In this document: positions 26,843 through 41,786 of the stretch, piece by piece | How positions within the stretch are numbered: position 1 is the first letter of the stretch | Layout of the letters: each line of letters opens with the position of its first letter | NCBI GenBank assembly: GCA_020630595.1 | Contig: JAHDBC010000004.1 | Coordinates: 1 to 64,000 of the forward strand | DNA length: 64,000 nt | Origin: Planktomarina sp. | Lineage (GTDB): Bacteria > Pseudomonadota > Alphaproteobacteria > Rhodobacterales > Rhodobacteraceae | Direction of reading: 5' to 3' | Made by a program: the position numbers and the translations under genes | Notes under the pieces: generated by a model | Database searches by the model: none | What the model was told of the DNA's origin: nothing | The model's input: only the letters and a program-made list of their open reading frames with translations

Positions 26843-27036
26843 CGGCTATCATGCGCCCGTGGGGTTGGCGCGTGCATGAATTTTTGCCCTTTGCGATGCA
26901 AACAATTGGTTAACGCCCCGTGCGCAGGCCCACCCCCATTTTTTGATTGAAGCCCCCCGTTGTGCGACAGTGCAAGGGCTAGAAGGCGTGATCCCGCGCC
27001 CCCTCGTGCGGAGGCATGAGAGGCTAATCGACTATA
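26843..27036 (+). promoter_or_regulatory. upstream region of the GTA cluster
   Basis: The 194-base gap before g1 must hold the main GTA promoter. It contains one CtrA half-site (TTAAC at 26910-26914) but no full CtrA box and no convincing -35/-10 pair. In R. capsulatus the cluster promoter is activated by GafA; no GafA site can be recognised by eye. Confidence 0.45.
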
Positions 27037-27366
27037 ATGAGTAATCAAGTATCTGTACCCACTGACCCCCGTGATATCGCCCTGCGTGATGAATTTCGGG
27101 ACTACATCGAACTGATCCGTGACGACATTGCCCGGATCACCGGTGGCCTTCCTGATAAAACCAGCGACGAGGCAAAGGATCTGCGCTGGCTTATCAAAGA
27201 CCTCGAAAAGACCCGTAAAGAGCTTAACTATTTAGAGGCCCGTATCGCCCATGAAGCAGACGCAGACCCCACCGAAATCTTCGACTTCGACGCCGTCAAA
27301 TCTACGGTCGGGGGCCGCTTGGATCGCCTCCGCCAATCCTTTGGCGCAGGAACAGTTTCTGAATGA
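27037..27366 (+). CDS. GTA g1, small terminase subunit (TerS-like)
   Basis: The 109-residue protein is alpha-helical and charged, and resembles GTA ORFg1. It has a long central helix (DYIELIRDDIARITGGLPDKTSDEAKDLRWLIKDLEKTRKELNYLEARIAHEAD) suited to a DNA-packaging oligomer. In the R. capsulatus GTA, g1 is the small terminase that works with g2. Position directly before the large terminase supports the call. Its last 116 bases overlap the proposed g2 start in another frame. Confidence 0.82.
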   Translation: MSNQVSVPTDPRDIALRDEFRDYIELIRDDIARITGGLPDKTSDEAKDLRWLIKDLEKTRKELNYLEARIAHEADADPTEIFDFDAVKSTVGGRLDRLRQSFGAGTVSE

Positions 27367-28639
27367 ACTGAACCCAGGTGAACTGGCCGCACTGCCATGG
27401 CTGTTCGAATTCTGGGCCATGGATCACCAGTTGCCGCCTGACGGCGACTGGCGCACCTGGGTGATCATGGGTGGGCGTGGCGCGGGCAAGACCCGCGCCG
27501 GGTCCGAATGGATCAGATCACAGGTCGAAGGGTCGCTGCCTTCTGATCCGGGGCGATGCAAACGCGTCGCCCTGATCGGGGAAACCTTTGATCAAGCCCG
27601 CGATGTGATGGTGTTTGGCGACAGCGGCATTCTGGCCTGTTCGCCCCCAGACCGTCGCCCTAAATGGATTGCGACGCGCCGGATGCTGGAATGGCCCAAT
27701 GGTGCGCAGGCACAGGTGTTTTCCGCCCATGATTACGAAGGGTTGCGTGGCCCGCAATTTGACTGCGCCTGGGCCGATGAACTGGCCAAATGGCCCAAAG
27801 CCGAAGAAGCATGGGATATGCTGCAATTCGGGTTGCGTTTGGGGGATCATCCGCAACAGTTGGTCACTACCACGCCCCGGTCGATCCAGACCCTTCGCAA
27901 TATCATCGACAGCCCGTCAACTGTTCTGACCCGCGCATCAACCGAAGCCAACCGTGCCAATCTGGCGGAATCGTTTCTGGAAGATATCCGCAGGCGGTAC
28001 AAGGACAGCCGGCTGGAACGACAGGAACTGGATGGTGTGATGCTGGAAAGTGTTGATGGGGCGATCTGGTCCTATGACCATTTCCGCGCCGCGCCCAAAG
28101 GCGAAACCTTTGACCGGGTTTTGGTTGCCGTGGATCCATCGGTGTCAAACGGCCCCAATTCCGATTTGTGCGGGATTTGTGTCGTGGGCATTCGCCAGTC
28201 AGGGCACCCAACCGAATGGACTGCCACCGTTTTGGCGGATGTTTCCGTGAAACCCGACAGCCCGGGGCGCTGGGCCGAAGCGGTCGTGCAGGCTTACTAT
28301 GACTATGATGCCCACGAAGTCGTGGCAGAGGTCAACCAAGGCGGGGACCTGATCGTGACGATGGTGAATGCCATCGACAACACGGTTCCGGTCAAAAAGG
28401 TGCACGCCCGGAAATCAAAGTCGCGCCGGGCGGAACCTGTGGCGTTATTGTATGATCAGGGTCGGGTGCGTCACAGAACCGGATTGTCCGAACTGGAAGA
28501 TCAACTGTGCCTGATGACCCGCCACGGGTTTCGCGGGCAAGGCAGCCCGGATCGTGTTGATGCGCTGGTTTGGGCGCTGACCGTCGGAATCATCGTGCCC
28601 ATGCAGGAAGGCGGGCGGCCCGGCGTGCGCAGACTTTGA
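27251..28639 (+). CDS. GTA g2, large terminase subunit (TerL)
   Basis: The 462-residue packaging motor has an ATPase domain with Walker A GGRGAGKT at residues 74-81, Walker B in FDCAWADELAKW and the coupling motif TTTPRS. The C-terminal RNase H-like nuclease domain starts near VLVAVDPSVSNG, giving a first metal-binding aspartate. It packages host DNA fragments into GTA heads. The start at 27251 overlaps g1 by 116 bases; the next ATG (27418) would leave only about 20 residues before the Walker motif, so the early start is preferred. Confidence 0.93.
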   Translation: MKQTQTPPKSSTSTPSNLRSGAAWIASANPLAQEQFLNELNPGELAALPWLFEFWAMDHQLPPDGDWRTWVIMGGRGAGKTRAGSEWIRSQVEGSLPSDPGRCKRVALIGETFDQARDVMVFGDSGILACSPPDRRPKWIATRRMLEWPNGAQAQVFSAHDYEGLRGPQFDCAWADELAKWPKAEEAWDMLQFGLRLGDHPQQLVTTTPRSIQTLRNIIDSPSTVLTRASTEANRANLAESFLEDIRRRYKDSRLERQELDGVMLESVDGAIWSYDHFRAAPKGETFDRVLVAVDPSVSNGPNSDLCGICVVGIRQSGHPTEWTATVLADVSVKPDSPGRWAEAVVQAYYDYDAHEVVAEVNQGGDLIVTMVNAIDNTVPVKKVHARKSKSRRAEPVALLYDQGRVRHRTGLSELEDQLCLMTRHGFRGQGSPDRVDALVWALTVGIIVPMQEGGRPGVRRL

Positions 28640-28644
28640 TCTGG

Positions 28645-28660
28645 TTAACAACGGCTTAAC
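28645..28660 (+). promoter_or_regulatory. CtrA binding site in g2-g3 gap
   Basis: The sequence matches the full CtrA consensus TTAA-N7-TTAAC exactly (TTAA at 28645-28648, TTAAC at 28656-28660). It lies 6 bases after the g2 stop and about 95 bases before g3, in a non-coding gap. Binding is inferred from consensus only. Confidence 0.6.
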
Positions 28661-28679
28661 GTCCCGTCCGCGATGTTGA

Positions 28680-28711
28680 GAACAATTCAAACCTTGTTCG
28701 TCAAATTGTTC
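28680..28711 (+). repeat. inverted repeat upstream of g3
   Basis: GAACAATT (28680-28687) and AATTGTTC (28704-28711) are perfect 8-base inverted arms separated by 16 bases. They lie downstream of the CtrA box. It may be an operator or an RNA stem-loop in the g3 leader; no T-run follows. Confidence 0.6.
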
Positions 28712-28754
28712 CCAACACAGCAACAATCGTCCCAAACGTCGGAGCGACCAAAAT

Positions 28755-29924
28755 ATGGTTCTGAACCTTTTCAAATCCAGCGCCCCCGCCGCGCCTGAAC
28801 AAAAGGCAAGTGCAGCCGGGCGCATTGTGGCCCATTTGTCATCGGGTCGGGTGGCGTGGTCGCCCCGCGATGCCGTATCGCTGACCCGGACGGCGTTTCA
28901 GGGAAACCCTGTCGGTTACCGGGCCGTGAAATTGATTGCAGAGGCCGCAGCGGCCCTGCCGGTCGTGTTGCAATCGGATGCCGAACGGTTCACATCGCAT
29001 CCGCTTTTGGATGTTTTGACCCAACCCAACCCCACGCAGACCCGGGTTGATTTCTTTGAATCGCTTTTGGGTCAGTTGTTGCTGAACGGCAATGCCTACG
29101 CTGAACTGGTCATGACGGATGCTGGGCACGTGGGCGAATTGCACGTGCTGCGGTCGGACCGCATGTCGGTTGTGCCGGGGCCGGATGGCTGGCCGATTGG
29201 TTTTGAATACAACGTGAACGGGCGCAAGCATCGGTTTGACATGACCGGGCCGATTGCCCCCATTTGCCATATCAAATCCTTTCACCCGCTGGATGATCAT
29301 TATGGCATGTCGGCGGCCCAGTCCGCCGCCGCGGCCATTGATGTGCACAACGCGGCGTCGCGGTGGTCCAAGGCATTGTTGGACAATGCCGCCCGCCCAT
29401 CCGGTGCTCTGGTGTACAAGGGCGCAGATGGCAATGGTTCGCTGACATCCGATCAATACGATCGACTGGTCGAAGAGGTTGAATTGAACCATCAGGGCGC
29501 GCGCAACGCGGGCCGGCCGATGTTGTTGGAAGGCGGAATGGATTGGAAACCCATGGGGTTCAGCCCATCCGACATGGAATTCCAGAAAACAAAAGAAGCC
29601 GCCGCACGCGAAATTGCGACCGCCTTTGGCGTCCCGCCAATGTTGCTGGGCATTCCGGGCGATGCGACCTACGCCAATTATGCCGAAGCCAATCGCGCAT
29701 TCTACCGCCACACGGTTCTGCCTTTGGCCGAACGGGCGACAGCGGCGATCGGCAACTGGCTTGCCACGGCAGAAGGCGCAGATGTCACCCTGCGGCCCGA
29801 TTTGGACAACATCCCGGCATTGGCCACGGAACGCGAAGCGTTGTGGCGGCGTGTGGGGGATGCGGTGTTCCTGACAGATGCGGAAAAACGCAAGCTTTTG
29901 GGCCTGCCCGAGACAGAGGTATAG
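28755..29924 (+). CDS. GTA g3, portal protein
   Basis: The 389-residue HK97-type portal protein is expected to form the dodecameric ring at one head vertex through which DNA is packed and ejected. Recognisable family stretches include GNPVGYRAVKLIAEAAAALPVV, LNGNAYAELVM and MGMSAAQSAA-like YGMSAAQSAAAAIDVHN. EAAAREIATAFGVPPMLLGIPGDATYANYAEANRAFYRHTV is near the C-terminus. It is the first gene after the g2-g3 regulatory gap, with GGAGCGACC upstream. Confidence 0.95.
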   Translation: MVLNLFKSSAPAAPEQKASAAGRIVAHLSSGRVAWSPRDAVSLTRTAFQGNPVGYRAVKLIAEAAAALPVVLQSDAERFTSHPLLDVLTQPNPTQTRVDFFESLLGQLLLNGNAYAELVMTDAGHVGELHVLRSDRMSVVPGPDGWPIGFEYNVNGRKHRFDMTGPIAPICHIKSFHPLDDHYGMSAAQSAAAAIDVHNAASRWSKALLDNAARPSGALVYKGADGNGSLTSDQYDRLVEEVELNHQGARNAGRPMLLEGGMDWKPMGFSPSDMEFQKTKEAAAREIATAFGVPPMLLGIPGDATYANYAEANRAFYRHTVLPLAERATAAIGNWLATAEGADVTLRPDLDNIPALATEREALWRRVGDAVFLTDAEKRKLLGLPETEV

Positions 29925-40913: not shown

Positions 40914-40944
40914 TGGCTTTGCGCGATGCCCAGATGCTATGCTA
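40914..40944 (+). promoter_or_regulatory. candidate cysE promoter
   Basis: TTGGCT and TATGCT (in GCTATGCTAGGG) are present in the 75-base gap after g15, with a spacing of about 19 bases, longer than ideal. No terminator is seen at the GTA end, so read-through into cysE is also possible. Confidence 0.3.
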
Positions 40945-40973
40945 GGGACGCGCAGAACTGGAAAGGATTGCCC

Positions 40974-41786
40974 ATGTCTGTCAAAGAAAAAGCTGTCCGG
41001 TCGATTGATCCTGTTTGGGATCGCATGGTTGACGAAGCCCATGCCGTTGTGCGGGAAGAACCCCTGATGGGGGGGATGCTGCATGCGGGTATCTTGCACC
41101 ATGCTTCGCTGGAAGCTGCGTTGTCTTACCGGATTTCGCAAAAGCTGGCCTCTGCCGATATGCCTGAACAGATGTTGCGCGAATTGTGCGATGACGCATT
41201 GGCAGACGGGACAATCGGGCAGGCCGCCCGGGCCGATCTGGCCGCGGTTCTGGACCGCGATCCCGCGTGCCATCGGCTGATCCAGCCGATGATGTATTTC
41301 AAAGGGTTTCAGGCGGTCCAAGCCCACCGCGTGGCGCATTGGCTGTGGCGCAATGATCGCGAACATCTGGCCTATTTCATTCAGTCCCGCACGTCAGAGG
41401 TGTTTGGTATTGATATCCATCCGGGCGCGAAAATCGGGCAGGGGATCATGATCGATCATGCCCATTCGATTGTCATCGGTGAAACGGCCGTTGTGGGCGA
41501 CAATGTTTCAATGCTGCATTCCGTCACCTTGGGCGGCACAGGCAAAGAAGACGACGACCGCCACCCGAAAATCGGCGACGGGGTTCTGATCGGCGCAGGG
41601 GCCAAGGTTTTGGGCAATATCAAGATCGGCAATTGCAGCCGCATCGCCGCCGGGTCCGTCGTGCTGGAAGAAGTGCCGCCGTGCAAGACAGTCGCGGGTG
41701 TGCCCGCGCGGATTGTTGGTGAAGCGGGCTGTGCGCAGCCGTCTGTCACCATGGACCAGCTTTTGAACCAAGGCTGCGGTCAGTAG
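40974..41786 (+). CDS. cysE: serine O-acetyltransferase
   Basis: The 270-residue enzyme makes O-acetylserine for cysteine synthesis. It has the helical N-terminal domain (PVWDRMVDEAHAVVREEPLMGGMLHAGILHHASLEAALSYRISQKLA). The left-handed beta-helix of hexapeptide repeats has the catalytic region GIDIHPGAKIGQGIMIDHAHSIVIGETAVVGDNVSMLHSVTLGGTGK. KVLGNIKIGNCSRIAAGSVVL precedes the C-terminal tail. I recall cysE as a frequent neighbour of Rhodobacteraceae GTA clusters. Confidence 0.96.
   Translation: MSVKEKAVRSIDPVWDRMVDEAHAVVREEPLMGGMLHAGILHHASLEAALSYRISQKLASADMPEQMLRELCDDALADGTIGQAARADLAAVLDRDPACHRLIQPMMYFKGFQAVQAHRVAHWLWRNDREHLAYFIQSRTSEVFGIDIHPGAKIGQGIMIDHAHSIVIGETAVVGDNVSMLHSVTLGGTGKEDDDRHPKIGDGVLIGAGAKVLGNIKIGNCSRIAAGSVVLEEVPPCKTVAGVPARIVGEAGCAQPSVTMDQLLNQGCGQ

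Follow-up and report, generated by a model that had tools for sequence, protein, structure and literature searches.

A conserved CtrA-type box between the terminase and portal genes of a Planktomarina gene transfer agent cluster

Introduction

The control of gene transfer agent (GTA) genes by CtrA is already known and is not in itself new. The route by which CtrA reaches the GTA is a long-standing question, for which the answer in Rhodobacter capsulatus is an indirect one, through GafA. In that organism CtrA has been shown to bind a site of the form TTAAC-N6-GTAAC at gafA (Fogg 2019; PMC6363796), an activator gene lying outside the structural cluster, and a direct CtrA input has been proposed for the late RcGTA genes (head spike, tail fibre and lysis), whose loci have half-sites and likewise lie apart from the main cluster (PMC9638019). 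Caulobacter has CtrA-controlled multi-promoter operons of cell-cycle genes in which internal promoters with TTAA-N7-TTAA boxes give independent control of the downstream genes (PMC4287350). The Caulobacter GTA has a regulatory node in the stretch following its terminase gene that separates the terminase from the portal onward, with the terGTA terminator after gtaT, GafZ anti-termination and IHF (PMC11150451). Alphaproteobacterial phages also read the host CtrA through TTAA-N7-TTAA, as demonstrated by EMSA (PMC9437464).

Here we describe a 64,000-nucleotide stretch (the window) of a Planktomarina sp. genome (contig JAHDBC010000004.1, positions 1 to 64,000), in which a full CtrA-type box lies inside the GTA structural cluster between g2 and g3. 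It resembles the R. capsulatus gafA site as a candidate CtrA site serving a GTA, in the kind of half-site and in the separation of 7 nt, which for R. capsulatus is measured from the TTAA to the GTAA core, but is placed within the cluster directly before the portal gene. Compared with the late RcGTA loci the site is a full box, and compared with the Caulobacter operons it has the same TTAA-N7-TTAA form in front of GTA genes. The place of the box corresponds to the regulatory node of the Caulobacter GTA, where no CtrA box is reported at terGTA in the available part of that account, whereas the gap in the window is without a recognizable intrinsic terminator. The phages using the same form are lytic and have dense clusters of sites, unlike a GTA structural operon.

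Results

The GTA cluster of the window

The cluster is read on the forward strand with g1 (27037-27366) at its head, an open reading frame in the small-terminase position that is identified by position only and has no Pfam match. The large terminase g2 (27251-28639), upstream of the box, has Pfam Terminase_6N and Terminase_6C matches and is given as the longest open reading frame, the true start of which may lie further in. The first gene downstream of the box is the portal g3 (28755-29924; Phage_portal, E = 6.5e-90). Terminase, portal and capsid are confirmed by Pfam, and the remaining frames through 40898 follow an RcGTA-like order as judged by eye; with this order here and gafA elsewhere in the genome, the cluster is of the RcGTA type. 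Directly after the last GTA gene there is a serine acetyltransferase-like frame (40926-41786, assigned by eye), and in R. capsulatus cysE1 has been reported to affect GTA-mediated transfer (PMC9552610).

The box and its genomic background

The non-coding gap between g2 and g3, defined by the open reading frame limits, is 115 nt long (28640-28754, forward strand). The first-pass annotation had placed a TTAA-N7-TTAAC box in this gap at 28645-28660, and the forward-strand sequence there, TTAACAACGGCTTAAC, is an exact match; the reverse strand of the same box reads TTAA-N7-TTAAC again (28644-28659). The box starts 5 nt past the terminase stop codon (frame end 28639) and 110 nt upstream of the portal ATG (28755). 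The 15-mer TTAA-N7-TTAA occurs once in the 64-kb window compared with 0.10 expected from dinucleotide shuffles, in agreement with the roughly 0.1 chance occurrences estimated earlier, and the extended form TTAA-N7-TTAAC is confined to this single place, matched on both strands, with 0.05 expected.

The genome (2.74 Mb in 63 contigs) was searched for TTAA pairs at distances of 4-10 nt, counted by match length. Sixteen of the 26 pairs are at distance 7, with 1, 1, 2, 3, 0 and 3 pairs at distances 4, 5, 6, 8, 9 and 10, respectively (mean 1.7). With 16 sites TTAA-N7-TTAA is not rare in absolute terms across the whole genome, and the preference for a spacing of 7 is as expected of a working CtrA box. 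As the other spacings have 0-3 pairs each, about 9 in 10 of the N7 pairs lie above background, and the perfect site in the g2-g3 gap is very likely to be one of these. The same preference is seen in a second genome (G168), with distance 7 in 10 of 20 TTAA pairs. Genomic N7 sites are found upstream of luxI and luxR (both Pfam-confirmed), recA, radC and a CckA-like kinase gene, all of which fit CtrA; CtrA sites have been predicted at ctrA, cckA and luxR2/luxI2 in D. shibae (PMC4046655). Weighing against a functional reading, a CtrA site upstream of cckA in Ruegeria KLH11 is reported to be without effect on cckA expression (PMC3692519). Triple TTAA arrays, in which a further TTAA comes 5-6 nt after an N7 pair, occur at G000:C36:127521-127544 and G000:C41:19691-19715 and at G008:C6:13784-13808 and G008:C17:2415-2439, recurring in two congeners, and may represent a higher-order CtrA site.

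The host encodes CtrA with 76% identity to the Caulobacter protein over residues 1-224 (E = 5.7e-115). A gafA homologue, located with the gene beside ctrA in phage RDJL Phi 1 as the query, is present as a 367-amino acid open frame on contig C25 (40.9-41.8 kb), and its 5' end carries TTAACGAATGAGTAAC, which has the TTAAC-N6-GTAAC form of the R. capsulatus site.

A different regulator recognizing TTAAC-like halves, for example of the Dnr/Fnr type, could in principle use the box. CtrA and Fnr-type regulators have half-sites in common, and in D. shibae a Dnr/Fnr-type site can be TTAAC-N4-GTCAA (PMC7232146). The spacing here, however, is 7, the second half is TTAA and not TCAA, and the genome-wide enrichment is at spacing 7 and not at 6, making use by such a regulator very improbable.

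Conservation within the genus

Counting the window's own, 20 genomes of the genus were compared. A portal match is present in five of them, complete in the window, G007 and G008 and partial in G013 and G019, and the g2-g3 gap is readable in the window, G007, G008 and G019. The earlier proposal had named absence of the motif from close relatives as its refutation; this was looked for, and instead a perfect TTAA-N7-TTAA with GG just before it is present in all four readable gaps. The distance from the box to the portal ATG is 110 nt in the window, 109 in G007 and 107 in both G008 and G019, compared with gap lengths of 115, 195, 204 and 110 nt, respectively, showing that the position of the box is tied to the portal and not to the terminase. 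The two halves are kept in all four genomes while the 7-nt spacer drifts (CAACGGC in the window, CGCGGTC in G007, CAGGGTC in G008 and CTAAAAA in G019). A chance origin of the box, to which the 0.10 occurrences expected per window of this composition would leave some room, is refuted by the box at the same place in four of four congeneric genomes unless the congener gaps are misassembled; the enrichment specific to N7 also argues against it, and we regard it as scarcely credible.

A second conserved block is found downstream of the box, reading TCAAATTGTTCCCAA in the window and TCAA(A/T)TTG(A/T)TTTCAA in G007, G008 and G019. The spacing of the block TCAAATTGnTTTCAA from the box start in the four genomes is 56, 56, 56 and 57 nt.

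The portal frame of G019 diverges after about 85 residues, indicating that its cluster is decaying though the box persists, and the G013 remnant has no box in the stretch read. The portal match is absent or partial in 17 of the 20 genomes and full-length in only three including the window's, which together with the remnants in G013 and G019 indicates that the GTA cluster is being lost in the genus. The scarcity of intact clusters would suit a box that is bound by CtrA with little or no effect on GTA expression, being a leftover of the ancestral phage or a weak accessory site. A precedent exists in the Caulobacter GTA, in which IHF binds four internal sites between terminase and portal, yet particles are still formed after these sites are mutated (PMC11150451). 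The retention of both halves with changed spacers in four species and the constant distance to the downstream block speak against this, and a box of so little consequence is judged rather unlikely.

The promoter-like block and other features of the gap

The block (28701-28715, forward strand) is regarded as promoter-like from its conserved placement in the congeners and from the motif obtained by EM in the family gaps. It consists of a -10-like TCAAAT (28701-28706) followed by the counterpart of the family TTTTCAA, and transcription is predicted to start near 28713-28714. A start 25-45 nt downstream of the box had been anticipated in the first-pass annotation, which does not agree with the approximately 53 nt (near 28713) predicted from the conserved block. 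The predicted start would put the 5' end of the box near -68, whereas the 5' end of full CtrA boxes in Caulobacter is usually near -39 (PMC4287350). Placing the start near 28684 would agree with -39, although the corresponding -10 (GATGTT) is a poor one and shows no conservation. The half-site belonging to the window block is also poor (TTCA), the full box being about 40 nt further upstream, and a generic sigma-70 scan of the window gap found nothing.

The position of the box relative to the block is also relevant to whether CtrA might act here as a repressor or roadblock, holding g3 onward silent or stopping g1-g2 readthrough until the level of CtrA drops or its phosphorylation state shifts. 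Caulobacter CtrA sites near -14 repress (PMC4287350), several promoter positions in the gap are conceivable, and gafA overexpression in an R. capsulatus ctrA mutant still raised capsid RNA 22-fold (PMC6363796). The box is however upstream of the conserved -10-like block and not over it, R. capsulatus requires CtrA to produce its GTA (PMC6363796), and expression of the GTA cluster falls in D. shibae mutants of the CtrA phosphorelay (PMC4046655); repression is accordingly thought unlikely, and activation remains the preferred reading.

The terminator scan of the window gap gave no GC-rich stem with a T run, no tandem repeats and no terGTA-like site, and the predicted RNA fold of the gap is not unusual (z = -0.9); a terminator or RNA hairpin was therefore rejected as its main function. 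An inverted repeat, TGTTGAGAACAATT / AATTGTTCCCAACA, surrounds the promoter-like block (28674-28717, forward strand; 14-nt arms, 16-nt loop, 93% complementary) and was rejected as the key element as it is absent from the congener gaps in the alignment. The repeat contains GTTC-N8-GTTC, one base off the spacing of a LexA box; GTTC-N7-GTTC itself is absent from every gap examined, and a LexA box was discarded as a candidate.

The g2-g3 gap across the family

The comparison set for the gap consisted of 88 family genomes, nearly all of different genera. Each of the 93 family g2-g3 junctions that were measured has a gap, of 22-821 nt in length and typically about 125-130 nt. De novo searching gave a plus-strand motif in about 58% of the gaps, composed of TTAA(c), some 12 nt, A-n-n-n-T and TTTTCaA, which resembles a promoter carrying a CtrA half-site 5' of the -10. 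Split-half testing recovered this motif from four of the eight halves; the proportion of held-out sequences scoring above 95% of shuffles was then 34-44% for the plus strand, as opposed to 2-12% for the minus strand. Three of the remaining halves were instead taken over by a CACCG...CGGTG palindrome that leads into TTAA, and the last yielded no stable motif. This palindrome, CACCG(T/C)(A/G)CGGTG, is a second recurring gap motif often located just 5' of TTAA (L006, L018, L024 and L051).

In some 85 other genera the gap motif is usually accompanied by a CtrA half-site and not by the full box. A perfect N7 box occurs among the 88 gaps in this genus and in one other genome, L054, where the terminase gene runs into the first half of the box. 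One-mismatch N7 boxes are present in several gaps outside the genus, some of which take the upstream half from the terminase stop codon, and elsewhere half-sites or N6 pairs prevail. TTAA-N6-TTAA was considered as a standard family CtrA box and rejected, being enriched in the gaps but not genome-wide; given this and the stop-codon halves of the one-mismatch cases, N6 pairs were not relied on.

Strong hairpins are found in 26 of 86 family gaps compared with 6.6 in shuffled sequences, mostly without T tails. The L002, L003 and also L029 gaps have two or three short perfect tandem hairpins directly after the terminase stop codon (examples are CGATTTCTGTGACAGAAATCG, CAGAGTCCCTGTGGGACTCTG and GGAAACTGTTTCAGTTTCC), where Caulobacter has its terGTA; these are absent in the window.

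CtrA boxes at the g1 promoter

The g1 promoter has a family-wide motif formed by a TTGAC -35, a -10 and then GCTAGAAGAAGTGGGCAAGCGGCC. By family motif comparison its core in the window is GCTAGAAGG (26978-26986, forward strand), which is a possible GafA target. A perfect TTAA-N7-TTAA is present upstream of g1 in 18 of 79 genomes (L037, L038, L039, L047, L049, L056, L060, L062, L066, L076, L082, L092, L126 and L131-L135) compared with 0.2 expected, and TTAA pairs at other distances number none at 4, 5, 6, 8 and 10 and three at 9. Allowing up to one mismatch, the N7 box is found in 46 of 79 (4.6 expected). Where both the -35 and the core can be placed, 25 of 47 g1 promoters have an N7 box within this one-mismatch limit, in most cases at 26 or 55-56 nt upstream of the -35.

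The congeners G007 and G008 have perfect N7 boxes in the g1 promoter, and the window sequence aligned with these is an eroded box, TTAACGCCCCGTGCG (26910-26924, forward strand), with its first half intact. The perfect g1 boxes in two congeners and in 18 of 79 family g1 regions indicate that CtrA probably reads both promoters, which suggests direct CtrA input at g1 and g3, unlike the indirect R. capsulatus model. In R. capsulatus a 633-bp g1 promoter fragment was not shifted by CtrA, and the legend of the same panel gives it as unshifted with either CtrA or GafA (PMC6363796), so that the assay may have had little power, or the box may be missing from R. capsulatus.

Discussion

The explanation we consider probable, from the conserved arrangement of the gap, is that the box is a functional CtrA-binding site activating an internal promoter between g2 and g3. 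Occupying about -68 to -54, CtrA would bring RNA polymerase to a promoter with no recognizable -35 and with the conserved -10-like element at 28701-28706, and the transcript, beginning near 28713, would run into the portal, protease, capsid and tail genes. The CtrA-fed g3 promoter would add to readthrough from g1, the promoter of which would be driven by GafA. With GafA in turn predicted to be controlled by CtrA, and with a box before g3, CtrA would feed the cluster both via GafA and directly. We infer that CtrA binds here, that it activates and does not repress, and that a separate g3 transcript starts at the predicted site.

The internal promoter had been proposed in the first-pass annotation as one setting portal, capsid and tail expression separately from the terminase. 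The promoter part of that proposal is supported by the CtrA-type box, very likely functional, selectively kept before the portal, the promoter-like block at constant distance in four of four genomes and the presence of genes for CtrA and GafA, but control separate from the terminase is supported only in part, given the perfect boxes at g1 in the congeners and the family. Overexpressing gafA in R. capsulatus increased terminase RNA 78-fold and capsid RNA 6-fold (PMC6363796), which is compatible with a partial uncoupling of g2 from g5 and is not proof of an internal promoter, and the earlier rise in D. shibae of a part of the cluster including the capsid (PMC6473078) likewise does not prove one.

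More tentatively, and with somewhat more doubt than confidence, direct CtrA control through full g1 boxes may hold in much of the family, with a second, CtrA-fed portal promoter in some lineages. The R. capsulatus chain would then be one branch of a feed-forward loop, and the species of the window would have lost the direct g1 input and kept that at g3, so that CtrA could affect its terminase and its particle genes differently. Selected passages of the literature, with few subscription papers among it, contain no account of a CtrA box in the g2-g3 gap, and as far as these papers show a full conserved box within the cluster and widespread g1 boxes have apparently not been described.

The conserved box within the cluster and the many g1 boxes make direct CtrA control of GTAs testable. 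A separate g3 promoter would allow the capsid and tail parts to be made at other times than the packaging motor, and bears on the timing of GTA gene expression within producing cells.
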